NCBI RefSeq assembly: GCF_014697415.1
Contig: NZ_JACJRT010000008.1
Span: forward strand, 124,001 to 188,000
DNA from: Cyanobium sp. FACHB-13342
GTDB taxonomy: Bacteria > Cyanobacteriota > Cyanobacteriia > PCC-6307 > Cyanobiaceae
Length of the DNA stretch: 64,000 nt
Reading direction: 5' to 3'
A program made the translations under genes and the position numbers. The notes beneath the pieces were generated by a model. That model was not told where the DNA came from. It searched no databases and saw nothing but the letters and a program-made list of their open reading frames with translations. Each line of letters begins with the position of its first letter. Positions within the stretch are counted from its first letter, which is position 1. Shown here piece by piece: positions 45,133 to 63,114 of this stretch.

Positions 45133-46290
45133 GTGCGAAGCTGTGGTTGTGATCGTGGACAGCCCGTGCGCGAGTTTCGTGACGAGGGCGGGCATTTCAA
45201 AGGTGACGCGGCGCGGCCCCGCGTACTGCTGTGCGGCTATTACGGCGAGCACAACCTCGGCGACGACGCCTTGCTCGAGGTGTTGCTGAGCCAGTTGCCC
45301 GCCGCTTGCCAGGCGGTGGTGACCGCCCATGACACCACCCTGGTGCACGAGCGCTTTGGCGTGGAGACGGTGCCCCGTCGGCGCTTGGCCCTGGTGCTCA
45401 AGGCCCTGGGTCGCTGTGATGCCCTGGTGCTGGGCGGAGGCAGCCTGCTGCAGGACTCCACCAGCTTCCGCAGCCTCCTTTATTACGCCGCCCTGATCGC
45501 CGCGGCCCGGCTGGAGGGCAAGCCCGTGCTGCTCTGGGGCCAGGGCCTGGGCCCACTGCGCCGCCGGCGCAGCCGGTTGCTGGTGGGACGCCTGTTGCGC
45601 CTGGTCACCGCGGTGAGCTGGCGGGATGCGGAGTCGGCGGCCCTGGCCAAACGCCTGGGGCGCGAGGGGCCGGTAGGCAGTGATCCGGTGTGGGCCCTAC
45701 CGCCCCAACCCTGGCGGGGCACCGGTGGGCCCCTCGTGCTCTGTTTCCGCCCCACCCAGCAGCTGCAGGGCGAAGCCTGGCGCCCCTACCTGGCGGCCGT
45801 CGATCAGGTGGCCGCCACCCAGGATCGGGAGGTGATCTGGCTGCCCTTCCACGCCGGCCAGGACCGGGGCTTACTGGCTGAACTTCGCCAGACGGGGGTA
45901 CTGCCGGCTGGCCTGGCGGCCCGCAGCCGGGAGGTGGATGCGGAGCGGCCCAGCGAGGCGATGGCGGTGTTCAGTGGTGCGGGGCTGGTGGTGGCCATGC
46001 GCCTGCACGGGCTGATCCTGGCGGCCCTCGCCGGAGCCCCCTGCGCTGCCCTCAGTTACGACCCCAAGGTGGCCGCCGCCGCCGCTGCCCTGGGTTGCCC
46101 CTGCCAGGGCCTGGATCAGGCGCCGGCTTCTGACGTTCAGTCCTCAGAGCTGCAGGCCCTTTTGCTGGCTTCCTGGAGCGCTGCGCTCGACACCCCGCCG
46201 CCAGCAGCTCGCTTGGCGGAGCTGCGCCGCCAGACGGCTGTTCACCGCCAGGTGCTCCAGACCCTGGACGCCTCGGGCGGTGCTTGCTAG
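45133..46290 (+). CDS. csaB: Polysaccharide pyruvyl transferase CsaB
   Basis: Up to 385 aa; the start is a GTG at 45133, but a GTG at 45166 is also possible and only the part from 'RPRVLLCGYYGEHNLGDDALL' has family features. 'DALVLGGGSLLQDSTSFRSLLYY', 'LLWGQGLGPLRRRRSRLLV', 'VSWRDAESAALAKRLG' and 'AMRLHGLILAALAGAPCAAL' fit CsaB. The enzyme adds pyruvate ketals to cell-wall polysaccharide, which in other bacteria is the anchor for SLH-domain S-layer and outer-membrane proteins. No SLH protein is in the window. Confidence 0.9.
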   Translation: MRSCGCDRGQPVREFRDEGGHFKGDAARPRVLLCGYYGEHNLGDDALLEVLLSQLPAACQAVVTAHDTTLVHERFGVETVPRRRLALVLKALGRCDALVLGGGSLLQDSTSFRSLLYYAALIAAARLEGKPVLLWGQGLGPLRRRRSRLLVGRLLRLVTAVSWRDAESAALAKRLGREGPVGSDPVWALPPQPWRGTGGPLVLCFRPTQQLQGEAWRPYLAAVDQVAATQDREVIWLPFHAGQDRGLLAELRQTGVLPAGLAARSREVDAERPSEAMAVFSGAGLVVAMRLHGLILAALAGAPCAALSYDPKVAAAAAALGCPCQGLDQAPASDVQSSELQALLLASWSAALDTPPPAARLAELRRQTAVHRQVLQTLDASGGAC

Positions 46291-46298
46291 CAGGGGGT

Positions 46299-46874
46299 AT
46301 GGGCTCCACCACCACCGGGGCGCTCGGCACCGTGCTGCCGGTGCGCCAGTACTACGTGCAAACCGACAGCGCCCTGCCAGGCCAGGCCTATCGGATGTGC
46401 TTCTCCAGCACCTGTGCGATGGCGGTGAAGTATCTGAGGCCTGGGGCGTTGCTGGGCGCGAATGCCGACGACACCTATCTGCGCACCGTGCAGCGCTTCG
46501 GCGACACCACCTCCCCTTCAGCCCAGATCGCTGCCTGCGCCCACTACGGGGTCGCGGCGCGCTTCGGCACCCACGGCACCAGCAGCCTGCTGCAGCGGGA
46601 GATCGATGGGGGCTTTCCGGTGGGGACGGGCTTTCTGCACCATGGCCCCAGCCAAGCGCCCCGCGGTGGCGGCCACTGGATCCTGGCGATTGGCTATGCC
46701 CCGGCCGCTGGGGTGTTCAACGACCCCTATGGCGAGCTCAACAACCCCGCCGGTGGCTACGTGCAGGTGGGCCGGGGCGGTCGAGCGGTGCACTACAGCT
46801 GGCGCCACTGGTTGCCCCGCTGGGAGGTGGAGGGCACCGGCACTGGCTGGTTCATGACCTACCGGCTGGCCTGA
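46299..46874 (+). CDS. C39-like cysteine peptidase family protein
   Basis: 191 aa from the ATG at 46299, preceded by AGCAGGGGGT. 'MCFSSTCAMAVKYL' (Cys34 or Cys39), 'GGGHWILAIGY' with His126, and 'FNDPYGELNNP' with Asp142 give the Cys-His-Asp order of papain-like C39-type peptidases. There is no transporter domain and no signal peptide. Start and end blocks ('VLPVRQYYVQTDSALPGQAY') resemble C39-like proteins found in phages and cyanobacteria. Substrate unknown. It is followed by the convergent peroxiredoxin gene. Confidence 0.78.
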   Translation: MGSTTTGALGTVLPVRQYYVQTDSALPGQAYRMCFSSTCAMAVKYLRPGALLGANADDTYLRTVQRFGDTTSPSAQIAACAHYGVAARFGTHGTSSLLQREIDGGFPVGTGFLHHGPSQAPRGGGHWILAIGYAPAAGVFNDPYGELNNPAGGYVQVGRGGRAVHYSWRHWLPRWEVEGTGTGWFMTYRLA

Positions 46875-47467: not shown

Positions 47468-47704
47468 TCAGATCTTGGCGAGGTCGACGCCGAGTTCCTT
47501 GGCGTAGGCGCCTAGGCCCTTCTTTTGGATGGTTTTGAGGGCGCGGGTGGAGACGCGCAGCTTGACGAAGCGGTTGCCCTCGGCCCACCACAGACGGCGC
47601 TCCTGGAGGTTCACCTGCTGGAGCTTCTTGGTGCGCACGTGGGAGTGCGACACGGCCATGCCGTTGTTGGCGCGCTTGCCGGTGAGCTGGCAGACCCGGG
47701 ACAT
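47468..47704 (-). CDS. rpmB: 50S ribosomal protein L28
   Basis: 78 aa from the ATG at 47704. '[20 protein letters not shown]' and '[15 protein letters not shown]' are the standard L28 blocks; basic throughout. It binds the 23S rRNA of the large subunit. The 205-bp region upstream to 47909 is the spacer to the C39/ABC gene and should hold both promoters; a TTGGTAGGGTTAATG on the minus strand (47744-47758) may contribute. Confidence 0.96.
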
Positions 47705-47909
47705 GACCGATTTCCGAAACGACTTGCAGGCACTAGGCCTAAGCATTAACCCTACCAAAGTGCGGACCCCCCGCTCCCAACCGACGGGGCTGAGAGCGGA
47801 GATACCCAATATCTGCGAGGCCTGCGGCCTCAGTGATTTTTAGGGTCTTTGCGAGGTCAGATCACCTGGCTTCCAGGGGATCCACCCCCTGTCGCAGCCT
47901 CCCAGCCCG

Positions 47910-48662
47910 ATGAGCCGCTACGCCTGCGTTCAGCAGCATGCCCAGGAGGATTGCGGGGCGGCATGCGTGGCCACGGTGGCCCGGCAGTACGGCAAGCGCC
48001 TGCCGATGGCACTGGTACGCGAATGGGTGGGTACGGGGTCCACCGGCACCAGCCTGCTGGGCCTGAGTCGCGGCGCTGAAGGCATCGGCTTCCATGCCCG
48101 CTCGGTGCGAGCCAGACCCGAGCTGCTCAATCAGCTGGAGGCCGTGCCGTTGCCGGCGATCTGCCATTGGCGCGGCAACCACTGGGTGGTGCTGCATGGC
48201 CGCGCCGGTCAGCGCTTTGTGATCGCCGACCCCGCCGTGGGCCTGCGCTGGTTGAGCCGCGAGGAACTGGAGGCCGGATGGAGCAACCGGGTGATGTTGC
48301 TGCTGGAGCCCAACCATGCCCGGCTTGATGCCCTGGAGGAGGGGGAGGCGCGGCCCTGGCTGCAGCTGCTGCGCCAGGTGTTGCCCTACCGCGGTTTGCT
48401 GCTGCAGGCCTTGCTGATCAACGCGGCAGTGGGCCTGCTGGCCCTGGCGATGCCGCTGCTGATGCAGCTGCTCACCGACGACGTTCTGGTGCGGCGCGAC
48501 AGCCAGTTGCTGCTCAGCCTGGGCCTGGGGATGTTGCTGCTCTTCGGCTTCCGCAACCTGCTGGGGCTGATCCAGGGCCATCTGGTGGGGTACTTCGTCC
48601 AGCGCCTGCAATTGGCGATGGAGCTGGATTACTGCCAGCGGCTGTTCCAGCTGCCGATGTAA
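47910..48662 (+). pseudogene. Truncated peptidase-containing ABC transporter (C39 domain plus partial membrane domain)
   Basis: 250 codons from the ATG at 47910 to TAA at 48660-48662. The C39 protease domain is complete: 'QEDCGAACV' with Cys15, 'HWVVLHG' with His91, 'VIADPAVG' with Asp107. It is followed by two membrane helices (about 163-190 and 200-225) and the conserved start of a loop, 'MELDYCQRLFQLPM', where it stops. Whole exporters of this type have about 700 residues; the rest of the membrane domain and the entire ATPase are missing. The protein might still be expressed as a membrane-bound peptidase, but it cannot export on its own. The kinase gene ends 10 bp beyond, so the break coincides with a foreign-looking segment. 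Confidence 0.85.
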
Positions 48663-48671
48663 CGATGGTGT

Positions 48672-50603
48672 TTAGGTAGAGGCGTTGAGGGGTAGTTCCA
48701 GCGCCACCTCGGCTCCGCCCAGCTCGGCGCTGCGACCGATGCGCAGCTGCCCTCGGTGGTTGGTGGCGGCTGTTTGAGCCACAAACAAGCCGATTCCCAT
48801 GCCGGTGATCTTGGTGCTCTTAAGTAGCTCCCAGCTACGGCTGTAGTCAAACTCGTCGGGAAACCCCGGGCCGCTGTCACCCACGCGCACCTCCACAGCG
48901 TTCGATGACTTGATCAACTGCACCAGTAAGTGGCGGTTGGCCAGGGGAAGGTGGTCCGTCGCCTGAACCGCATTGCGGATCAGGTTTACCACCGCCATCT
49001 GCAACTGGGCCCCATCCCCATGGATCCAGCATGGCTGATCAAGGCCCGCCACTCGCAGGTTCAACTGGTCTGGCTTCAGCTCATTCTTGAGATACACCAG
49101 AGCACTATCAAGGTTGATACTCAGATTAATTTGGTTCTGATCACTTTCCACGTTGCGCAGCAGCATCCGCATGCGTTCAACGGTGGTCACAACCCGTTCA
49201 CCTTCCAGGGTGAGCCTCCTCAGGCTGTCCTGAAGTAAAGCGGGCAACTGATTGGGGGATAGTTCCTGCAGGCTCTCCATCGCCATTTGGCAGTTGAGCA
49301 GGATTGCGCTCAGGGGCTGCTGGATTTCGTGGGCCGCTGCCGCTGCGGTGAGGCTGGTTTTTAGCTTCTGATTGAGCTGGAGGGAGCGCTCTGCTTCAAC
49401 CTCCCGTTCCTGTGCCCAGGCCTTGGCCAGCTCCGCTTCGGCCTGGCGTTGTTCGGTGATGTCGAGAAAACTGCCATACAGCATCCCCTCAACGACCAAA
49501 CAATTGATCAGTACATCGCGCACCTGTCCGTTTTTGCAGGTGACGCGATATTCCAACGGCCGTGGCATTCGATTCTCCTGCACCGACGCAGTCACTTCCG
49601 CATCAAATTCATCAAACACGGCTTTGCGGTAGGCCTCATCCGGATACGCACAGCGAGCCCAATCCGCCATGGTGGGACAATCGAGCTGTGTGTAGCCAAA
49701 GGTTTGGGTGAAGGCCAAGTTTACGAAGATCACCTCACGCTCCGGTGTGGTCAGCGTTGTGGCCACCGGAATGGGTAGATGGTTAATCATGTTGTGGAAG
49801 CGCTCCTTGGCCTCGATCAACTGCTGCTCGGCCTGTTTGCGGGTCGTGAAGTCAATGAAGACCCCCTCCCATGCCACTTCGCCTGTCGGCAGACGGCGTG
49901 GCACGGATTCAATGGAGATCCACTTCACGTTGCCATTTTGTAGCCAACGACCTTCCCAAGTGTAGGGCTCGAGGGCAGCGGCACCGGCGATGTTGTGGGC
50001 GATTGCTGCTTCCCGGTCATCGGGATGCACTATCGAAAAATAGTGGGCAAAATCTTGTTTCAGCTTGTCGGGATCAAGGCCAGTCATCTCCAGAAAGCGC
50101 CTACTCAGGAAGGAGTAGCGCTGTGGTCCTTCCCGAGGGCTGAGCAGCACGTAGGTGCCTACCGGAATACTTTCAGTGAGCTGCAGAGCCTTATTCGCTT
50201 CCTCCAGGGAAGTGCGTTGCTCGGTGATATCGATCACTGCGCCATCCCACACCGTCTGACCATCGGGCAGTTGCCGCGAGCAGGAATCCAACCGATACCA
50301 TCGTGTTTGGCCGCGAATGATGTAGCGGCTTTCGTTAATGAAATTAGTCTGATTGCGTACAGCTTCGTCTGAGGCCTTAAAGAACGCGTCAATATCGTCC
50401 GGATGCATGCTGCGGTAAGCATTCATCGGATTGGCATCCAGCTCCTCTCTGGTGAGATCCAGCATCTCCAAGAGTCGGTTGCTGAAGAAGCTGAAGCTGG
50501 GCTGCTGGGTGACCGGGTCTCGGTAGAAAACATAAGCGCCCACAGGAAAGTTTTCCGTGAGCTGCAGGGCCTGGAACGAAGCGGGGATGGCCGGTGGGGT
50601 CAT
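48672..50603 (-). CDS. PAS-domain sensor histidine kinase
   Basis: 643 aa from the ATG at 50603, which overlaps the stop of the response regulator (ATGA). Three PAS domains (about residues 14-130, 137-265, 275-395) share 'HPDD' turns and 'FIDFTTR', 'VIDITEQR', 'FLDITEQR' ends. The kinase core has the H-box 'AAAAHEIQQPLSAILL' with phospho-acceptor His425, N-box 'NLIRNAVQA', G1 'VGDSGPGFPD' and G2 'GMGIGLFVA'. There is no membrane segment, so it senses a cytosolic signal, perhaps redox or a bound cofactor. Base composition is lower in GC than the neighbours. Confidence 0.93.
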   Translation of the reverse strand: MTPPAIPASFQALQLTENFPVGAYVFYRDPVTQQPSFSFFSNRLLEMLDLTREELDANPMNAYRSMHPDDIDAFFKASDEAVRNQTNFINESRYIIRGQTRWYRLDSCSRQLPDGQTVWDGAVIDITEQRTSLEEANKALQLTESIPVGTYVLLSPREGPQRYSFLSRRFLEMTGLDPDKLKQDFAHYFSIVHPDDREAAIAHNIAGAAALEPYTWEGRWLQNGNVKWISIESVPRRLPTGEVAWEGVFIDFTTRKQAEQQLIEAKERFHNMINHLPIPVATTLTTPEREVIFVNLAFTQTFGYTQLDCPTMADWARCAYPDEAYRKAVFDEFDAEVTASVQENRMPRPLEYRVTCKNGQVRDVLINCLVVEGMLYGSFLDITEQRQAEAELAKAWAQEREVEAERSLQLNQKLKTSLTAAAAAHEIQQPLSAILLNCQMAMESLQELSPNQLPALLQDSLRRLTLEGERVVTTVERMRMLLRNVESDQNQINLSINLDSALVYLKNELKPDQLNLRVAGLDQPCWIHGDGAQLQMAVVNLIRNAVQATDHLPLANRHLLVQLIKSSNAVEVRVGDSGPGFPDEFDYSRSWELLKSTKITGMGIGLFVAQTAATNHRGQLRIGRSAELGGAEVALELPLNAST

Positions 50604-51196
50604 GCGAGCTTCCGACTCAGCAGAGTGGCTTTGTGGACCAGCGCTGCACCGCTGAGGCCAAATTTCTGGCAGATGCTGCGGCGATGGGTTTCCACAGTGC
50701 GCACAGACACGCACAGCTTTTCGGCGATGGTTTTGGAGGAGTGGCCGGCACCGATCTCCTGCAACACCTCCAGCTCCCGCTGGGTGAGCTGCTCAGTATT
50801 AAACGATGGTTCTGGCAGAGGATCCAACCCGATCGGCAGCAGAGGCTCAATTTCATGGAGCAGGTCTTGAAACGCTCGATTTTTATCGAGAATGGCAACA
50901 ATCGCAGTGCTCAATTCGGGCGGCCGCTCCACGGTGCTGGCAAAACTCGACAGGACGATCACGCGGGCTGACGGCCGCAGCACATGCAAGGCCTGGGCCA
51001 CCTGCAGCCCATCGCCATCGGGCAGGGCCATGTCGAGGATCACCAGGTCGGGCAGCAGGGTTGCACAGGCCGTAATGCCCTCGGCCGCGCTGCCCACGCT
51101 TCCCACGACCTCCAGGGCCGGATGGCGTTCCAGCATGCCAACCAGCAACTGCTGCAGCATCAGCTGATCTTCAACAATGAGAACGCGAAGAGCCAT
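50600..51196 (-). CDS. LuxR/NarL-family response regulator
   Basis: 198 aa from the ATG at 51196. Receiver domain: 'VLIVEDQLMLQQLL', phospho-acceptor Asp55 in 'DLVILDMALPDGDGL', 'VIVLSSFAS', and the lysine in 'AILDKN'. The C-terminal HTH is 'LTQRELEVLQEIGAGHSSKTIAEKL' and 'SVRTVETHRRSICQKFG'. It lies upstream of its kinase with overlapping codons, so the two are a pair. Its start is divergent from the cadherin-like gene; the 218-bp spacer carries phased repeats that may be its binding sites. Confidence 0.93.
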   Translation of the reverse strand: MALRVLIVEDQLMLQQLLVGMLERHPALEVVGSVGSAAEGITACATLLPDLVILDMALPDGDGLQVAQALHVLRPSARVIVLSSFASTVERPPELSTAIVAILDKNRAFQDLLHEIEPLLPIGLDPLPEPSFNTEQLTQRELEVLQEIGAGHSSKTIAEKLCVSVRTVETHRRSICQKFGLSGAALVHKATLLSRKLA

Positions 51197-51305
51197 AGGA
51201 GGCAACGCAGGCCAGGACCTCGGCAGACCGGTCAACCGAATGTACGCCTATTAAGGATTGGAGGGACCAACGCCAAAAGCTTTTACGCACTGCGACCGCC
51301 AACTC

Positions 51306-51378
51306 TCAGTATTAATACGCAGAATAAGGCGCTGCCTGCGTGTTAATGCTGACATGGGTCCCATTATTCAGTGTTAGT
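51306..51378. promoter_or_regulatory. Phased direct repeats and inverted repeat between the regulator and the cadherin-like gene
   Basis: Three 9-bp elements of the form [A/C]GT[A/G]TTA[A/G]T begin at 51308, 51339 and 51370, exactly 31 bp apart (about three helical turns). The first two lie in a 17-bp imperfect inverted repeat (51306-51322 and 51336-51352; 15 of 17 positions pair), and the first includes the palindrome GTATTAATAC. The last repeat ends 36 bp before the first ATG of the cadherin-like gene. The layout is typical of sites bound by a dimeric response regulator; here the likely binder is the gene product at 50600-51196. Confidence 0.55.
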
Positions 51379-51414
51379 GGCCATGCCGGAACTTGGTGCT
51401 GGCACCCAAGGTGA

Positions 51415-52866
51415 ATGGAATCTGCTCTCTATGCAATGGCGACCACCTGGACATTTGGTAGCGAAGGCTCGGCCCTTTGGTTCACCATCTCGATCAATGA
51501 TTCAGGTCTGGCCACGGTTGAGATGCTTGCGGGATCGATGGATCTCAATGCCCTCTGGTTCTCCGATGGAGATGCCACGCCGGATGGCAGCACGTCTCTG
51601 ACCAAGACTCAGACCTCTCTGAACATGAATGGCTCAGGTTCCCTTGATGCCGAGGGCAATCTGATCACCTGGGACGAGGTGACCGTGCTCAGCACATCGG
51701 GGCTGGGCAAGTTGGGTACGACTAAAACGACCTATCTCACCGCTGGTGAAGAGCAAACGTTTACCCTTGATGCAGGAACACTTGCATTCCTGGATTCGTT
51801 CAAAGAAGAGAGTGAGGGCAGCGAAGGTGGTACTTATGATTTCTCATCCCTCACATTGGGTGTGCGTGCCACATCAGTGAATGGGGGTGACAGTGTCAAA
51901 CTTAATGCCGTTGCTGACGTGGATGACACGGCACCAGTGGTGGGTGGCGACCAGAGCTTTGACTACGCTGAGAATCAAAGCGCTGGCGCAGAGGTTGGCC
52001 AGGTGCAGGCCACAGACGATGTGGCTGTGACACAGTATCGCTTTGCTGATTCTGAGGGCACCACCTCTGCGGATGGCTACTACCAAATCGACAGTACCGG
52101 TAAAATCACGATCACGGCTGCGGGTGTTGCTGCTGGAGTTGCAAACAACGATTACGAAACGACTCCCAACCAATTCACATACGGCATCCAAGCCGGTGAT
52201 GCGACTGATAACTGGTCTGAGTCTGTGGATGTCACGTTAAACGTGACTGATTTGGACGATGGCGGTGGCGGGGGGAGCGAAGTCTTTGTGTCGTACAGGC
52301 GCTTTACTGATGGCGAAGGTTCATTTGATCGTGCTTGGTTAGACACCGACAAGGATGGTGTATTCGACGGAGGAGAGCAAAATCTGCTGCTCTCCTCCTC
52401 ATCTAACTGGACCTTTGGAACAGGTTCTGGCCCTGACTCAACTAAAAGCACCAAGAAGCTTGACGCAACTCAGGTTGATTTTGCTAGCGATGCCGTTACC
52501 ATCAAGTATTGGAATATCAATGTCACCGGTCTTGACTTAACGGGGTTTACCGATGACGATAAAATTGCCATCGATTTTGAGGGCATGACTGACGCCTTGG
52601 TTGGTGACTTCTCAAATCGCACTTTCTCCTCTGTCAAGTCGATTGCTACAGTGACGACAGTGGGGCCACATTTTGCCCTGTGGAGTAATTTAGGGCACAT
52701 GACATTTGTTCTTGATGGTGTCGTTGATGGTGGGCAAGGATTTTATATGCAAAGAGATCCAAATGGCGCCATCCCGGAACGCTATCTCCTTGGCGTATTT
52801 GCTTTCGATACCAGTGCTGATCTTGGACGTCTGGACCAATTTGATGTGACCTTCCCAACTCCGTGA
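51415..52866 (+). CDS. Cadherin-like, calcium-loop protein, probably secreted without Sec signal
   Basis: 483 aa from the ATG at 51415 (an ATG at 51436 gives 'MATTWTFGS'). No Sec signal. Residues 1-165 are beta-rich and acidic ('LNALWFSDGD' and 'DVDDTAPVVGG' near the end). Residues about 170-282 form a cadherin-like domain ('FDYAENQSAGAEVGQVQATDD', 'YQIDSTGKITITAAG', 'SVDVTLNVTDLDD'). After a Gly linker comes a calcium loop 'DTDKDGVFDGGE' (310-321), EF-hand or dockerin-like, and a C-terminal beta domain. The profile resembles RTX-type surface proteins exported by type I systems. GC content is visibly low, so transfer is likely. Confidence 0.72.
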   Translation: MESALYAMATTWTFGSEGSALWFTISINDSGLATVEMLAGSMDLNALWFSDGDATPDGSTSLTKTQTSLNMNGSGSLDAEGNLITWDEVTVLSTSGLGKLGTTKTTYLTAGEEQTFTLDAGTLAFLDSFKEESEGSEGGTYDFSSLTLGVRATSVNGGDSVKLNAVADVDDTAPVVGGDQSFDYAENQSAGAEVGQVQATDDVAVTQYRFADSEGTTSADGYYQIDSTGKITITAAGVAAGVANNDYETTPNQFTYGIQAGDATDNWSESVDVTLNVTDLDDGGGGGSEVFVSYRRFTDGEGSFDRAWLDTDKDGVFDGGEQNLLLSSSSNWTFGTGSGPDSTKSTKKLDATQVDFASDAVTIKYWNINVTGLDLTGFTDDDKIAIDFEGMTDALVGDFSNRTFSSVKSIATVTTVGPHFALWSNLGHMTFVLDGVVDGGQGFYMQRDPNGAIPERYLLGVFAFDTSADLGRLDQFDVTFPTP

Positions 52867-52927
52867 GGCTTGCGCTTGAAGCTCAGCCGTTTCTTTCTGC
52901 GGCCGCTTCTTCGCGAACGCTCTCGTA

Positions 52928-55342
52928 TTGCGACCCCGAGAATTGAGTCCTGACTCCCCGGCTGCTGCGTATCGCCTGATGCTGGCTGGGCAGCGTGATG
53001 ATGCTCGTGCTGCCTTGATGGCCTTGCCTGACCCAGAAGAGTTGCTCGATAACGAGCAGCGTGTCTGGGCAGGCGCAACCTGGCTTCGACTTGGCGACCC
53101 ACAGAAAGCTTTCCGCTATTTGCAGGGAGATTGGTTGGGGGTTCCTGCCCATGTGGCCGGTATTGCCGGTGCGAGCTTGCTCGCTTTGGGTTGTCTGGAT
53201 GCTGCTCTACCTGCCCTCGAATGGGCCGTAGCGGGCGAGACTTCGGATCCCGGCGCTCATAGGCTCAACCTAGGCCGCACACTCACCTTGCTGGGCCGGG
53301 CGGATGAGGCGCTCGAGCCGCTGCGTGAGGCCCTGCGGCTTGTTACCCACGATCAATCCCTGGCCCGGCGCTCGCTTGCCGAGGCGCTGCTGGCCTTGGG
53401 CCAGATCGAAGAGGCGCTGGATCTGCTGCCGGAGGCCAGTGACGACGTCACCACCCTCATGGCCCGTGCTTTCACGCTCGCCTCGGCGGCCCGCCATGAC
53501 GATGCCGCTGCCCTACTGCGAGACGCCAGCACCCGCCTGCCCCATGAGCCCCAATTGCTGCGCACGGCGGCTGAGCTGGCCCAGCTGCGTGGTCGTTTTG
53601 CTGAAGCAGAGCTGTTGCTGCGCCAGGCCTTAGAGGCGGATCCCACCAATGTGGCGCTCTGGGCTTCCTTGGCGCAGCTGGGCCAGGGCGCCCTGAACCC
53701 CGCCACTGCCCGCGAGGCAGCTGATCGGGCCCTCGAGCTCGCTGTAGGTAAAGACTCCTACTCCTGGGCTCTGGCCCTCTCCGCCCACGCCCATGTGCTG
53801 GCTGACGGCGGAAACGGGGCTGCGGCGGAGGCTGCCTGGCGTGAATCCCTGGCGGTATCCCCCTCCCTTGCGCCGGCCCTGGCCGGGTTGGGGCATGGCT
53901 TGCTGCAACAGGGCCGCCTGGAGGAGGCCCTCGATTGTTTCCGACAGCTTCGAGCCACTGCGCCCCTGCAGGGCTGGAGCCAGCTGATTCATGCCCGCGA
54001 GGTGCCTGACGATCCCGCCGTGTTGGAACAGATGGAATGCAGGGCCCGGCAGCCCAGCCTTGAAGGGAGAGTGCGCAGTGGCCTGTTGTTCACTCTGGCG
54101 GCCGCCTGGGACCGCAAAAAAGAGTATGGGAGGGCCTTCGCCCTGGCTCAGGAGGCCAACGAGGCCAGCAAGCTCCATCTCCACTACTCCCCGCCCGCCC
54201 ACCGCGAACGCGTGGAGGAGGTCATGGCCGTGTTTTCGGAGTCGTTGCTCGCCTCCCGATCGGATTGGGGCCATCCCTCCCGCCGACCCGTGTTTGTGTT
54301 GGGCATGCCCCGCTCAGGCACCACCTTGGTGGAGCAGATCCTGGGTAGCCACAGCCAGGTGCATGGGGCCGGTGAACTCTCCCAGGTGGGCGAGTTGATC
54401 CAGCGAATGATTGCCTGGGAGCTTCATCTGGGGAGTGGTCTCAGTTATCCAGCCTGTGTGGCCGATCTCACCGCCGCCGATCTGCAGCGACATGGCCAAC
54501 ACCTGCTCGATGGCCTTTCAGCTTTGGCCCCGGGCCCAGAACGCCATGTGATCGACAAGTTGCCCCACAACTTTGAGCACATCGGCCTGATCAAGCTCGT
54601 GTTTCCCAATGCCGCAATCCTGCACGTGCGGCGGGATCCGCGCGACATCGCCATCTCCAACTACATCACCGATTACGCCGCGAAATTCGGCGGCATGGGC
54701 TTCGCCTACGACCTCGGCTGGATCGGCGAACAGCTGGTAGACCACGACCGCTTGATGACCCATTGGCACCGCCTGTTTCCCGGGCAGATCCTTGAGGTGC
54801 CCTACGAAGACCTCGTGGACGACACCGAGGCCTGGGCTCGGCGAATGCTGGAGCATCTGGGCCTGGCCTGGGATCCAGCCGTGCTCGAGTTTCAAAGCCT
54901 GGAGCGCTCAGTTAAAACCGCGAGTGTTTGGCAGGTGCGGCAGCCGGTTTACACCAGCTCCAAAGCCCGCTGGCGCCGCTACGCCGACCACCTCGCTGCC
55001 CTCGACGCGGTGCTGGCTGCATCCCCCCCGGCAGATCCGGATCCGCTTCCGCCACCCGAGCTTCCGCCGGGGCAATTCGCAGCCGGGATGGAGGCCTTGC
55101 AGGCGGGCCGAGCCGATCTGGCGCGCCAGCAGTTCGCCTGTGTGTTGGTGGCCAACCCCCGCCATGCCGCTGCCCACCATTTTCTGGGTGCGGCTCTAGC
55201 GCAGCTGGGGAATCTGCCTGCTGCCCGCGAAGCCATGCAGCGCTCGGTGCAGCTCCATCCGCGCCAACCGAGCTGGCAGGGCAACCTGGCGGCGATCCAG
55301 GCGGCGCTCGATCGCGCAGGCTCGGGGAACAGGCAGCCATGA
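52928..55342 (+). CDS. TPR protein with sulfotransferase domain
   Basis: 804 aa, start read as TTG at 52928 (another TTG at 52943); the N-terminus is uncertain. Residues 1 to about 370 are tetratricopeptide-like helix pairs. The sulfotransferase domain starts near residue 455: 'FVLGMPRSGTTLVEQIL' (PAPS 5'-phosphosulfate loop) and 'LHVRRDPRDIAISNYI' (3'-phosphate motif) around 567. Another two or three TPRs close the protein ('AHHFLGAALAQLGNLPAAREAM'). It would transfer sulfate from PAPS to a protein or glycan. The next gene (parvulin) overlaps it by four bases, so they act together. Confidence 0.85.
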   Translation: MRPRELSPDSPAAAYRLMLAGQRDDARAALMALPDPEELLDNEQRVWAGATWLRLGDPQKAFRYLQGDWLGVPAHVAGIAGASLLALGCLDAALPALEWAVAGETSDPGAHRLNLGRTLTLLGRADEALEPLREALRLVTHDQSLARRSLAEALLALGQIEEALDLLPEASDDVTTLMARAFTLASAARHDDAAALLRDASTRLPHEPQLLRTAAELAQLRGRFAEAELLLRQALEADPTNVALWASLAQLGQGALNPATAREAADRALELAVGKDSYSWALALSAHAHVLADGGNGAAAEAAWRESLAVSPSLAPALAGLGHGLLQQGRLEEALDCFRQLRATAPLQGWSQLIHAREVPDDPAVLEQMECRARQPSLEGRVRSGLLFTLAAAWDRKKEYGRAFALAQEANEASKLHLHYSPPAHRERVEEVMAVFSESLLASRSDWGHPSRRPVFVLGMPRSGTTLVEQILGSHSQVHGAGELSQVGELIQRMIAWELHLGSGLSYPACVADLTAADLQRHGQHLLDGLSALAPGPERHVIDKLPHNFEHIGLIKLVFPNAAILHVRRDPRDIAISNYITDYAAKFGGMGFAYDLGWIGEQLVDHDRLMTHWHRLFPGQILEVPYEDLVDDTEAWARRMLEHLGLAWDPAVLEFQSLERSVKTASVWQVRQPVYTSSKARWRRYADHLAALDAVLAASPPADPDPLPPPELPPGQFAAGMEALQAGRADLARQQFACVLVANPRHAAAHHFLGAALAQLGNLPAAREAMQRSVQLHPRQPSWQGNLAAIQAALDRAGSGNRQP

Positions 55343-56058
55343 GCCTCGCCTGGTTGCAGGACAACCGAGCCTCCATGGCGCGCTGCGGCTTGTTGCGCCA
55401 GGCGCTGCGGGTTGAGCTGATCGAGCTGGCCCTTGCGGAGGCCCAGGTTCCGCTGCCCCCCCCTGACCAATTGCAGATTGCGCTTCAGGCGTTCTGGAAG
55501 CAGCGGCAACTGCCGCCGCCGAAGCGGGCGGCCTGGCTCGCCGAGCGCGATCTCACGGAGCAGGATCTGGCGCTGATGGTGAGCCGCTCCGGCCGCTGGC
55601 AGCAGTGGTGCGGGCAGCAGTGGCACCAGAAGCACGAGGCCCTCTTTCTCAAGCACAAAAACCAGCTGGATCAGGCCACCGCCTCGGTGTTGCGGCTGGA
55701 GGAGGAGGGCCTGGCACGGGAGCTGTATTTGCAGCTCGCCGAGGGTGAAAGCAGCTTTGCCGAGATTGGTCGCCACTTTTGCGGTGAGCACCCCAACCGC
55801 CAGAGCGGCCAGTGGGGACCCAAACCCCTCAGTGAGCTGCCGCCAGCCCTGGCTGAGCTGATCCGCACCACGCCCGTGGGCCAACTGCGCGAACCCCACC
55901 GCCTGGGCCCGGGCGACTGGGTTGTGCTGCGGGTGGAAGCGTTCACGGGTAGCCGGGTGGATGACCCTGAGGTGCAGCAGCGGGTGCTGCGCTTGGAGGG
56001 GGAGGCCTGGCTGGATCAGCGGATTGAGGCGTGGCTGAAGGGCTCTTTGCCTGGATGA
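55339..56058 (+). CDS. Parvulin-like (PpiC) peptidyl-prolyl isomerase
   Basis: 239 aa from the ATG at 55339, overlapping the sulfotransferase stop. The N-terminal about 95 residues are a helical SurA-like chaperone part. The parvulin domain covers about residues 105-215: 'LARELYLQLAEGESSFAEIGRHF', 'GQWGPKPLSELPPALAELI', 'PVGQLREPHRLGPGDWVVLRVE'. No signal peptide, so it folds client proteins in the cytosol. In other cyanobacteria such genes accompany C39-type exporters; here the exporter at 47910 is truncated. Confidence 0.82.
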   Translation: MSLAWLQDNRASMARCGLLRQALRVELIELALAEAQVPLPPPDQLQIALQAFWKQRQLPPPKRAAWLAERDLTEQDLALMVSRSGRWQQWCGQQWHQKHEALFLKHKNQLDQATASVLRLEEEGLARELYLQLAEGESSFAEIGRHFCGEHPNRQSGQWGPKPLSELPPALAELIRTTPVGQLREPHRLGPGDWVVLRVEAFTGSRVDDPEVQQRVLRLEGEAWLDQRIEAWLKGSLPG

Positions 56059-56147
56059 GTGCCGAAGCCAAGCCGTTAGCCCCGCACGAGCCCCTCAGCC
56101 TCACCCGGCTGATTGAATTGAGGATGGCTGCCCGCGGGAGACGAATC

Positions 56148-56468
56148 TCAGGGAATGGGCAGTTCTGCGTAGGCGCCGTTGCGAATGTTGTTGATCGCAC
56201 CTTGGATTTCGGCAACAACCGCGCGAATGCGTGGCCAGCTGGTCGTCGTCAGCACCAGGATCGCCATGGTCCGACCATTGAGATTCTGCTGGTAGCGCAA
56301 GTTGGTGTCCGTGGTGATCAGGAGCTCAAAGCCTTCTTGTTCCGCCAGGCGAATCAAGTCCCCATTTGTGACGGTGGACCAACCCAGCTCATAGGCAGTT
56401 TTCACGACGTGGCCGTTGAGGGAGCGGCGCAACGGCACCGGCGTTCCCTGGTCAAACAGGATGCGCAC
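56148..56468 (-). CDS. DUF5615 PIN-like toxin
   Basis: 106 aa from a GTG at 56468, directly behind the antitoxin stop. 'ILFDQGTPVPLRRSLNGH', 'TAYELGWSTVTNGDLIRLAEQ' and 'ELLITTDTNLRYQQNL' have the acidic metal sites (Asp6, Glu and the Asp of 'TTDTN') of the PIN/Mut7-C-like DUF5615 fold. With DUF433 upstream it forms a toxin-antitoxin pair, the toxin presumably being an RNase. A damaged copy of the pair lies at 57029-57251. Confidence 0.82.
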   Translation of the reverse strand: MRILFDQGTPVPLRRSLNGHVVKTAYELGWSTVTNGDLIRLAEQEGFELLITTDTNLRYQQNLNGRTMAILVLTTTSWPRIRAVVAEIQGAINNIRNGAYAELPIP

Positions 56469-56702
56469 TCAGGCCAAGGCCGCAGCGCTGCTGCGGGCTG
56501 CGTGCTCCAGCACCTGCCGGGCTTGCTCCAGCTCCACACCTGGGAAGAGTGCCAGGAATTCCGTCATCGAGATGCCGTCTTCCAGGTTTTCAAACAGGGC
56601 GGCAACAGGGACCCTGGTGCCGCGGAACACCCAGGCACCGCTAACCCGCTGGGGATCGCGCTCAACCGCAGTGCAGCCAGCCCAGCCGAGATCGCTCTGC
56701 AT
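56469..56702 (-). CDS. DUF433 antitoxin
   Basis: 77 aa from the ATG at 56702. 'RDPQRVSGAWVFRGTRVPVAALFENLEDGISMTEFLALFPGVELEQA', read in several blocks, is the DUF433 winged-helix pattern: 'P...gG.p.i.GTRvpv..l...l..g.s..efl..fP.l...q'. It probably neutralises the DUF5615 toxin and represses the operon. Stop and toxin start are adjacent. The sequence upstream (56703-56786) is shared with the decayed second copy. Confidence 0.83.
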   Translation of the reverse strand: MQSDLGWAGCTAVERDPQRVSGAWVFRGTRVPVAALFENLEDGISMTEFLALFPGVELEQARQVLEHAARSSAAALA

Positions 56703-56786
56703 CCTCAGACCTCCCGTCCGTGGGTGATCGCTCTCAGGGTAGACAGGCTGTTGGCATCGAGGAAGGGGTGAACCACCACTTCGGTG

Positions 56787-57032
56787 TCAGGGGCGCTGGC
56801 GAGCCACAGCTGCTGCGATGGCGCGCTCCATGTCGTCGAGGCTCAGCACGCGTTTCACCTGTGGGTGATTGCGGAAGAGCTCTTCCGGCTCGTGGTGTGC
56901 GGGCACCAGCATGAGCCGGCCCTGGGCATCCACGCTCACCTGCAGGCGAGATCCTGCTGTCAAGCCGAGCTGATCCAGCAAGTTGCGCGGGATCGTCAGC
57001 TGATCCTTGGAGCTCAGGCTGACAGTGGTCAT
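56787..57032 (-). CDS. AbrB/MazE-type antitoxin without an adjacent toxin
   Basis: 81 aa from the ATG at 57032. The swapped-hairpin AbrB pattern is 'VSLSSKDQLTIPRNLLDQLGLTAGSRLQVSVDAQGRLMLVP'; the C-terminal 30 residues are the toxin-binding tail. Normally a VapC or MazF toxin gene follows, but the next gene is DUF433, with an 84-bp spacer encoding only a short fragment without domain features. A fragment of a DUF5615-like gene (57029-57169) ends within its start codon. Either the toxin was lost or the protein acts elsewhere. Confidence 0.8.
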   Translation of the reverse strand: MTTVSLSSKDQLTIPRNLLDQLGLTAGSRLQVSVDAQGRLMLVPAHHEPEELFRNHPQVKRVLSLDDMERAIAAAVARQRP

Positions 57033-57169
57033 GAGAAAAGTGTAAGGCGCACGGCCTTACATGGCCTTGGAGCCTTGGGCCTCAAATCCTCAAAGCCGCC
57101 TTGTTCCGCTAGGCGAATCAGCTCTCCATTCGTAACAGTGGACCAATGCAGCTCGTACGCCGTATTCAT
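57029..57169 (-). pseudogene. Remnant of a DUF5615 toxin gene
   Basis: Frame from 57169 to TGA at 57029, 46 codons, beginning 'MNTAYELHWSTVTNGELIRL'. It matches 'TAYELGWSTVTNGDLIRL' of the intact toxin (56148-56468) almost residue for residue, continuing 'AEQGGFEDL' for 'AEQEGFELL', then diverges. The first about 20 residues (with the catalytic Asp) and the C-terminal half are missing, so no active toxin can be made. The stop overlaps the AbrB start codon. Confidence 0.8.
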
Positions 57170-57180
57170 GCATTTCCTGG

Positions 57181-57251
57181 TCAATCAGGGCTGCGGGCCG
57201 CGTGCTCCAAAACCTGCCGGGCTTGCACCCCCAGCCGAGTTCGCCCTGCAT
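57181..57251 (-). pseudogene. Remnant of a DUF433 antitoxin gene
   Basis: The ATG at 57251 starts 'MQGELGW', matching 'MQSDLGW' of the intact antitoxin. About 50 codons are then missing, and in another frame the text resumes 'QARQVLEHAARS' (intact: 'QARQVLEHAARS') to a TGA at 57181. Upstream DNA 57252-57310 also resembles 56703-56770, so the duplication included the spacer. It is a duplicated module that has decayed by deletion and frameshift. Confidence 0.78.
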
Positions 57252-57317
57252 CCGCAAGCCTCCAATCCTTGGATGATGTCTTTCAACGTAGACAGGTTGC
57301 TGGCATGGAGGATGGCC

Positions 57318-57530
57318 TCACGCAAGCCCTAAAAATACAACCGCGGCCTGATGGAGTCTCTGCAGGTCATTGCGACCCAGCTTGCCGATGCAGGCTCCGA
57401 GACGTCGCCGCGACACGGTTGTGATCTTGTCGACCATTAACTGGCCTGTGGCCGCGAGCCCGTTGCCACTGGTGAAGGCACAGATCGTGATTGAATCCGT
57501 TGGTGATGCGAGGCCAGATCCAGGAGTCTC
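57318..57530 (-). pseudogene. MazF/PemK toxin remnant
   Basis: On the minus strand the frame ends at 57318 with 'VDKITTVSRRRLGACIGKL', 'GRNDLQRLHQAAVVFLGLA', the typical C-terminus of MazF/PemK endoribonucleases. Upstream, in the same frame, 'PTDSITICAFTS' resembles the MazF core strand 'p.d.itvcp.t'. It is fused directly to 'GNGLAATGQLM', so a central piece is deleted. The N-terminal part with the catalytic Arg is gone; the reading runs into the 3' end of htpG. No cognate MazE is adjacent, only the AbrB protein at 56787-57032, with which it might once have been paired. Confidence 0.68.
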
Positions 57531-57531
57531 T

Positions 57532-59454
57532 TCAGAGCCCCCGCTGCATCAACTGGCCCATCAGCGTCGCGCTGCGTTGCTGGAAGCCCGCCAATTCATT
57601 GGGTTCCAGGCCGCCCACTGCCAGGCGGGCGAGCTCGTAGATGTGGCGGCTGAGGTCGTCGGCCAGTTGTTGGCTTGGCGAGCTGCCGCCGGCGCCCGTG
57701 ATCACGGAACCGGCCGAGAGCTTGAGCAGGCCCTCCACCAGCGGGTGCTTGCGGTTCACCAGCAGCACGTGGTGATCGGGCAGGCCCGGCAGGCGCTGCT
57801 CCATCAGGGCACCCATGTCGTTGATGCGGCGCATCTGCTCCGGCAGCAGGATCAGGGCGGCGGGGGCGTTGTCGCCCTTGAGGGCCTGCACCTGGATGGT
57901 CACCTTGTCGTTGGCCAGGGCGCCCTTGAACAGCTCCCGCACCTTCTCGCTGGAATCCTTGCCCTCGGCGTCACTCAGTTCGCTCTCCTTCTCCTGCAGC
58001 GAGTCGTCGAGCTCGCTGTCCACCCGTTGGAACTTCAGCTCCTCGTGGCGGTACTCCAGCCAGGGAATGAACTGGGTGTCGATGAAGGTGTCGGCCAGCA
58101 GCACTTCGGCCCCCTGGCTCTTCCACAGGGCCAGGGCCCCAGCCTGGCCGGCCTCATCGGTGCAATACAGGATTCGCTTGTCGTTGTCGGCCGCCAGGCG
58201 CGTGCGGTAGCCCGCCAGGGTCGTGTAGGCCTTGCCACCCTCAGCGGGGATGGGGTCGAGGCTGTCGCCTTCGCCCGCCGCCGCAGTTGTCCCGAAGAGC
58301 ACCAGATCGGCCACCTGCTCGGCGAACTTGTCGTCCTCCATGGCGCCGATCTTGATGAACGGGGCCAGCGATTCCCAGATCTCCGCGTAGCGCTTGGGAT
58401 CGTCCCTGTGGAGCTCCTTGAGCCGGTCGCCCACCTTCTTGGCCACAAAGCCACCGATCGAGCGCACCCTCCGGTCGGTCTGCAGGGCTGACCGGCTCAC
58501 GTTCAGCGGGATGTCCGGCGAATCGATCACCCCGCGCAGGGGCAGCAGGTAGCGGGGCACCACCTCCTTGATCGAGTCGCTCACAAACACGTTGTTGCAG
58601 TAGAGCTTGATCTCGTCCTTCTCCCAATCGGCCCGGCCGCTGGATTTGGGGAAGTAGAGGATGCCCTGCAGGTTGTAGGGGTAGTCGGTGTTGAGGTGCA
58701 CCCACAGCAGCGGGTCGCCCTGGAAGGGGTAGAGGTAGCGGTAGAGCTCGATGTAGTCGTTGTCGCTGAGATCCCTCGGGCTCTTGCGCCAAGGCGATTC
58801 ACGCTTGTTGACCGTTTCGCCCTCCAGCTGCACCGCCACTGGCAGGAAGTCGCAGTAGGTGGTGATCAGGGTGCGGATGCGGGCCGGCTCGATGTACTCC
58901 AGCTCCTCCTCCATCAGATGCAGGATCACATCGGTGCCCGGCTCGCTGCGCTCGGCTGCCTCCAGGCTGAAGTTGGGCGAGCCATCGCAGCTCCAGCGCA
59001 CCGCCTCGCTGCCGTCGCGGGCGGAGAGGGTCACCAGCTCCACCTGCTTGGCCACCATGAAGCTGGAGTAGAAGCCCAGGCCGAAGTGGCCGATGATCGC
59101 GTCGCTCTCGCTTTTGTATTTCTCCAGGAAGTCTTCGGCGCTGGAGAAGGCCACCTGGTTGATGTAGCGCTTCACCTCTTCGGCATCCATGCCGATGCCG
59201 TTGTCAGAGATGGTGAGGGTGTTGGCCTCGCGGTCGATGCGAATCGAAATCTTGCCCTCGGGCCCTTCGCTGCAGTCGCCCGCCATGGCGGCCATGCGCC
59301 GCTTGCTGATGGCATCGACGCCATTGCTCACCAGCTCCCTTAGGAACACCTCATGGCCGCTGTAGACGGCCTTTTTGATGATCGGGAAGATGTTCTCGGT
59401 GTGGATCTGGATCTGGCCCTGTTCCGCCTGCAGCACCACAGCTTTTGAAATCAC
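57532..59454 (-). CDS. htpG: Molecular chaperone HtpG (Hsp90)
   Basis: 640 aa from a GTG at 59454 ('ISKAVVLQAEQGQIQIHT'). The ATPase domain has 'FLRELVSNGVDAISKRRMA', 'ISDNGIGMDAEEVKRY', 'IGHFGLGFYSSFMVA' and 'GTDVILHL'. The middle domain carries 'KLYCNNVFVSD' and 'RGVIDSPDIPLNVSRSALQ'. HtpG is a dimeric chaperone; in cyanobacteria it helps under heat, light and oxidative stress and stabilises phycobilisome linkers. A MazF remnant adjoins its stop codon. Divergent from the DUF3598 gene. Confidence 0.95.
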   Translation of the reverse strand: MISKAVVLQAEQGQIQIHTENIFPIIKKAVYSGHEVFLRELVSNGVDAISKRRMAAMAGDCSEGPEGKISIRIDREANTLTISDNGIGMDAEEVKRYINQVAFSSAEDFLEKYKSESDAIIGHFGLGFYSSFMVAKQVELVTLSARDGSEAVRWSCDGSPNFSLEAAERSEPGTDVILHLMEEELEYIEPARIRTLITTYCDFLPVAVQLEGETVNKRESPWRKSPRDLSDNDYIELYRYLYPFQGDPLLWVHLNTDYPYNLQGILYFPKSSGRADWEKDEIKLYCNNVFVSDSIKEVVPRYLLPLRGVIDSPDIPLNVSRSALQTDRRVRSIGGFVAKKVGDRLKELHRDDPKRYAEIWESLAPFIKIGAMEDDKFAEQVADLVLFGTTAAAGEGDSLDPIPAEGGKAYTTLAGYRTRLAADNDKRILYCTDEAGQAGALALWKSQGAEVLLADTFIDTQFIPWLEYRHEELKFQRVDSELDDSLQEKESELSDAEGKDSSEKVRELFKGALANDKVTIQVQALKGDNAPAALILLPEQMRRINDMGALMEQRLPGLPDHHVLLVNRKHPLVEGLLKLSAGSVITGAGGSSPSQQLADDLSRHIYELARLAVGGLEPNELAGFQQRSATLMGQLMQRGL

Positions 59455-59579
59455 GATGCCCCCACATTCCCCTGGGGTGGGCCTGGCCGCCAAGGGGGTG
59501 CCATGGGCAGGAAACCGACCAAGCCCGCGGGCGGAGTGGGCTCCATAGGATCAGCCCCTCCCCCTCTCTGCCTCCGCAC

Positions 59580-63076: not shown

Positions 63077-63114
63077 GCTGCTACATTGCCATCCGGTTGC
63101 CCCATTTTGCCCCT

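Follow-up and report, generated by a model that had tools for sequence, protein, structure and literature searches.

The window considered here (the whole stretch of 64,000 nucleotides analysed from Cyanobium sp. FACHB-13342) harbors, between the rpmB and htpG genes, a series of genes that begins with a short open reading frame (ORF) on the forward strand (47910–48662), running from ATG to TAA and encoding 250 amino acids. It is followed by a PAS-histidine kinase, a LuxR-type response regulator and a protein labelled cadherin-like in an earlier first-pass annotation of this DNA, then by a TPR-sulfotransferase and a parvulin-like protein (Table 1).

Table 1. Positions in the window of the genes and features of the rpmB–htpG region
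Feature	Position	Strand	Remark
rpmB	47468–47704		
Apparently accessory DNA between rpmB and htpG	47770–57531	.	Similarity to relatives breaks on both sides
Probable leftover 5' part of a short-type C39 peptidase-containing ABC exporter	47910–48659	+	Peptidase domain at residues ~4–135
Junction	48659–48660	.	21 bases identical to the intact gene of congener G005, then no similarity
PAS-histidine kinase	48672–50714	-	Lower GC
LuxR-type response regulator	50600–51235	-	Upstream of the kinase, same direction
Cadherin-like protein	51415–52866	+	Lowest GC
TPR-sulfotransferase	52928–55342	+	Residues 317–804 97% identical in congener G008, beside htpG
Parvulin-like protein (Rotamase_2, under cut-off)	55339–56058	+	G008 copy 96–97% identical; remnant in congener G007
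htpG	57532–59493		

Short-type C39 exporters, of the bacteriocin type in cyanobacteria, cleave double-glycine leaders during peptide export, and six membrane helices are usual in such proteins. The 250-residue ORF contains a complete Pfam Peptidase_C39 domain (residues 4–135, E 4e-32), in which C15, H91 and D107, presumably the catalytic residues, are invariant in a 38-row alignment (the window fragment plus 37 of the 80 scan loci described below), so that the peptidase domain is indeed intact, as first annotated. The membrane domain is represented by just positions 4–89 of the 274 of the ABC_membrane profile (23.7 bits, against a 28-bit cut-off), and a Pfam search of the ORF did not find ABC_tran; the earlier statement that the gene ends within the membrane domain and lacks the ATPase is thus correct. 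The ORF comprises a complete C39 peptidase domain and, joined to it, the beginning of a membrane domain of the short exporter type, the remainder being absent. Two long helices are predicted after the peptidase domain (149–195 and 198–246), immediately before the stop, and with these two helices and no ATPase, the product should be incapable of export. A structure model computed from the 38-row alignment (mean pLDDT 82, pTM 0.59) shows a peptidase fold with two long helices after it. In Foldseek, PCAT1 comes first (query TM 0.51, the rmsd being high when the full length is compared), and good matches are also obtained with isolated peptidase domains of ComA and with 6mpz (target TM 0.82–0.89), the latter being apparently LahT150 according to its entry title and to PMC6363468. 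Against the NCBIfam bacteriocin exporters, the fragment stays below the cut-offs of TIGR03796 (114 of 853 bits) and TIGR01193 (81 of 524 bits); since its intact homologue in G005 does so as well (425 of 853 and 337 of 524 bits, respectively), the label "bacteriocin" is given by domain layout.

This homologue, carried by congener G005, is the closest one found. It is an intact exporter, 81% identical to the fragment, in which C39, membrane and ATPase domains are all present; it measures 716 amino acids from the start that aligns to that of the window (755 from an earlier GTG), and an HlyD gene lies directly downstream. Similarity between the two DNA sequences stops at base 48659, the next codon in the window being TAA while the G005 gene continues, and the exporter is thus cut off at residue 250, as had been proposed. 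Among 60 related genomes, 47 have a match to the fragment at E <= 0.001, and the frame stays open over 716–770 codons in the seven other best-matching genomes (44–81% identity). A scan that took a single genome for each species (537 relatives passing, with the best 80 loci kept) gave a similar picture: 76 of these 80 loci stay open over 712–796 codons counted from the match start, two are still open at the contig end (L128 and L147, at 420 and 598 codons), and in two others (L145 and L148) the frame is disrupted, or part of it masked, at a later point. None of the 80 ends at residues 240–260, and a conserved short form is found neither in the 60 relatives nor in the best 80 loci. As no locus ends near residue 250 and 76 read on, the fragment is, judged from these homologues, a truncated exporter and not a member of a conserved short family. 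The record that contains L128, whose exporter is 66% identical to the fragment, is titled as a Bifidobacterium breve MAG, and is probably a mislabelled or contaminated bin.

Where, then, is the rest of the gene? The C-terminal half of the G005 protein yields 38 matches in the genome of the strain, the best of which (38% identical) belongs to another exporter, a 982-aa long-type protein encoded on contig C6; this protein has no Pfam C39 match, and its cyclic-nucleotide-binding match is slightly under cut-off. At the orthologue level, the missing half is found on no contig of the genome, nor at the right end of the low-GC segment, and an orthologous HlyD partner is likewise not found in the genome (best match 30% identical), the window itself giving one chance-like HlyD match (E 0.04, at 1.4–1.7 kb).

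The region between rpmB and htpG spans 9.8 kb in the window, as against ~50–1,700 bp in 11 of the 12 congeneric stretches fetched (taken from 15 congeners with an htpG match). Similarity to relatives ends on the left at 47707–47769, depending on the relative, and resumes on the right at 57321–57539, or earlier in G008 and G007, through parvulin DNA in common. As this similarity ends left of the fragment and resumes to its right, the fragment itself is, by synteny, part of the accessory DNA; the G005 exporter sits elsewhere in its genome, on a different contig from the rpmB–htpG pair. The twelfth stretch, that of G008, breaks in this region: one contig stops just past rpmB, and another starts inside the TPR-sulfotransferase. 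Its htpG, parvulin and TPR-sulfotransferase are 95–97% identical to those of the window (the parvulin copy having one in-frame stop within the matched stretch), and no close copy of the fragment is found in G008 (best 28–30%). Such contig breaks in the homologous region could suggest that unrelated stretches were wrongly joined at 48659/48660 during assembly, and that the exporter of the strain is actually intact; this is very improbable, since the contig in which the junction is embedded is 477 kb long and the assembly is 99.4% complete in 18 contigs, on none of which the missing half or HlyD is found.

In G007, the gap of 1.7 kb (L064:3112–4818) contains a ParA-like ORF and a MazF-like ORF (both labelled by reading their translations) together with a parvulin remnant, and these contents show turnover at the rpmB–htpG spot, which can be regarded as a site of gene gain and loss in the genus. 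In the window, DUF5615 and MazE-like antitoxin ORFs lie at 56148–57032, and DNA repeats (56325–56766 versus 57089–57315) are present between the parvulin gene and htpG. The search for RNA families, tRNAs and repeats near the block gave nothing useful, the sole tRNA of the window being at 63114. On the other side of rpmB, a stand-alone Peptidase_C39_2-like ORF (46284–46874; Pfam 23.4 bits, cut-off 24) sits beside a pyruvyl-transferase gene; G007 has an 83% identical copy and G011 an internally shortened match, the G008 DNA aligns through it at 90%, and nine other congeneric stretches give no match.

A distance of 10 bp separates the stop of the fragment from the kinase gene, whose minus-strand ORF has its 3' end at 48672; the break is hence next to an AT-richer gene set, in agreement with the first-pass annotation. 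The GC content is 0.68 for the fragment, as against 0.57 for the kinase, 0.61 for the regulator and 0.52 for the cadherin-like ORF, and GC3 values are also lower in these three genes (0.67, 0.70 and 0.52, respectively) than in the other 12 genes measured, including the fragment (0.83–0.92 for nine of them, 0.73–0.78 for three to the right). The GC drop is gradual, from about 0.60–0.65 at 48.7–48.9 kb to 0.53 at 49.0 kb. The dinucleotide signature of the 48.66–52.93 kb segment is not exceptional (delta* 0.070, with a maximum of 0.084 over the 253 overlapping, equally long windows taken outside the segment) and is ruled out as proof of foreign origin, for which the case is thus made by GC content and rarity. 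Relatives of the cadherin-like protein, which has no Pfam or NCBIfam match, occur in four of 300 family genomes including that of the strain, the others covering part of the protein, and the kinase, probably starting at an ATG near 50603 that overlaps the regulator stop, matches the six congeners tested through its kinase part only (23–44% identity). Taken together, the set looks accessory. Two particular sources were considered and rejected: a viral one (a search of viral_contigs gave one 29% match for the fragment and none for the cadherin-like protein), and a plasmid one for the kinase (897 records, all below 60% identity, with 25–27% in the eight rows listed).

That this segment is lower in GC and rare in the genus would suit a simple insertion that split the exporter, the other half being still present. 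The absence of this half, both beyond the low-GC segment and elsewhere in the genome, leaves a simple split unsupported and already contradicts this form of insertion; moreover, no transposase is found among the block genes searched in Pfam, and no matching terminal repeats around the block, making this scenario scarcely credible. The first proposal, namely an exporter locus split or partly deleted by the 48.7–52.9 kb segment, is supported as regards the broken exporter and its accessory neighbours, and unsupported as regards the simple split.

The genes to the right had been seen as typical companions of such exporters, a view that is not supported for the short type: in 81 short-type exporter loci searched at E 1e-5, no match is obtained for either the TPR-sulfotransferase or the parvulin, while HlyD is matched somewhere in 72 of them. 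As flanks of at least 5 kb on both sides are available for 48 of the 80 scan loci (10 kb for 40), the absence of companions is testable in about half of them. Parvulin matches occur in 181 of 251 family genomes, and in all five places compared by eye (G003 contig C391, G010 C3, G013 C22, G002 C9 and contig C6 of the strain itself) the parvulin adjoins an exporter whose frame is open over 858–1007 codons. In agreement with this, PMC3140520 places SurA (a rotamase) with the long-type exporters of groups I, II and VI, and HlyD in every group.

Could the remaining protein still serve as a membrane-anchored free C39 peptidase, cleaving leaders inside the cell without export? Its catalytic residues and predicted fold appear intact (from the pLDDT and Foldseek target values given above), its reading frame is undecayed, and it is the sole PF03412 match in its own genome. 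According to PMC6363468, isolated C39 domains can be active, but the excised domain of Prochlorococcus MIT9313 was inactive in the authors' hands, and both PCAT1 and NukT gain activity from their membrane domain; besides, this form is present in no relative. As for possible substrates, ten Nif11-leader matches were found in the genome and read as ORFs, none of which has Gly-Gly at the leader end, and none of which is close, the nearest (L213, at 18.7 kb in the window, ~29 kb off) being devoid of such a site. Three of them (L205, L208 and L211, on contigs C7 and C18) carry Ala-Gly in an end that resembles a leader, with 15, 18 and 12 residues after it, respectively, which keeps a trans-acting role in play. 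The double-glycine motif scan of the window gave seven matches, none convincing or adjoining the fragment, but a good precursor was found at only three of ten intact loci (G005, L097 and L128), with nothing good at the seven others, so that the absence of a convincing precursor beside the fragment says little. Near the intact G005 exporter, ~400 bp upstream, a 100-aa ORF (L032:11249–11551, minus strand) has a double-glycine leader, LSPSEEEHLSGG, ending in LSGG, and is likely a substrate of this exporter. With no good substrate identified for the fragment, the free peptidase suggested at first is possible but unlikely, and it seems quite unlikely that truncation freed a leader peptidase, with cleavage uncoupled from export, that could act in trans on Nif11-type ORFs elsewhere.

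What the ORF preserves is, with high probability, the 5' third of an ABC exporter of the short C39 peptidase-containing type, cut off by a rearrangement and likely non-functional. An illegitimate rearrangement, either a deletion or a replacement by the kinase/regulator/cadherin-like DNA, would have joined codon 250 to unrelated DNA in which TAA comes at once, leaving a recent, non-functional remnant whose frame would still be undecayed. The frame has no internal stop, its pairwise dN/dS with G005 is 0.21, and Tajima tests indicate that the fragment does not evolve faster than G005 (chi2 0.03–1.09 with five outgroups, two of which are near-identical to each other). Such an undecayed frame is compatible with a recent break and with retained function alike, and most of the divergence between the fragment and G005 may predate the break. 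Six changes are specific to the window and two to G005 at columns where all the remaining sequences of a set of eight agree, counts too small to be decisive. Disruptions of this type have precedents, as truncations, insertions and frameshifts are described as frequent in such clusters by Wang et al. (2011; PMC3140520), who report eleven incomplete clusters; a limited literature search gave no paper on a truncated C39 bacteriocin exporter in Cyanobium. For annotation, the ORF would be better labelled a partial exporter than a peptidase.

Compared with known systems, the fragment resembles the cyanobacterial short-type C39 exporters (groups III–V of PMC3140520) by its C39 domain at the very N-terminus and the lack of a cyclic-nucleotide-binding domain, as well as by its 81% identity to an intact member adjoining HlyD, and differs from them in lacking most of the membrane domain, the ATPase, an adjacent HlyD and an evident nearby precursor. 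It also matches PCAT1 (residues 3–250, E 4e-22) and ComA (residues 10–250, E 2e-18), with the same peptidase fold, but both of these are full-length exporters. With the free C39 peptidase FapD, it shares the C39 fold and a weak NCBIfam match (42 bits, cut-off 330), far under the family cut-off, and is thus not a member, its closest relatives found being exporters. The locus adds one more disrupted peptide exporter to those already known; the ORF is most likely what remains of such an exporter, and not an enzyme of a novel type.
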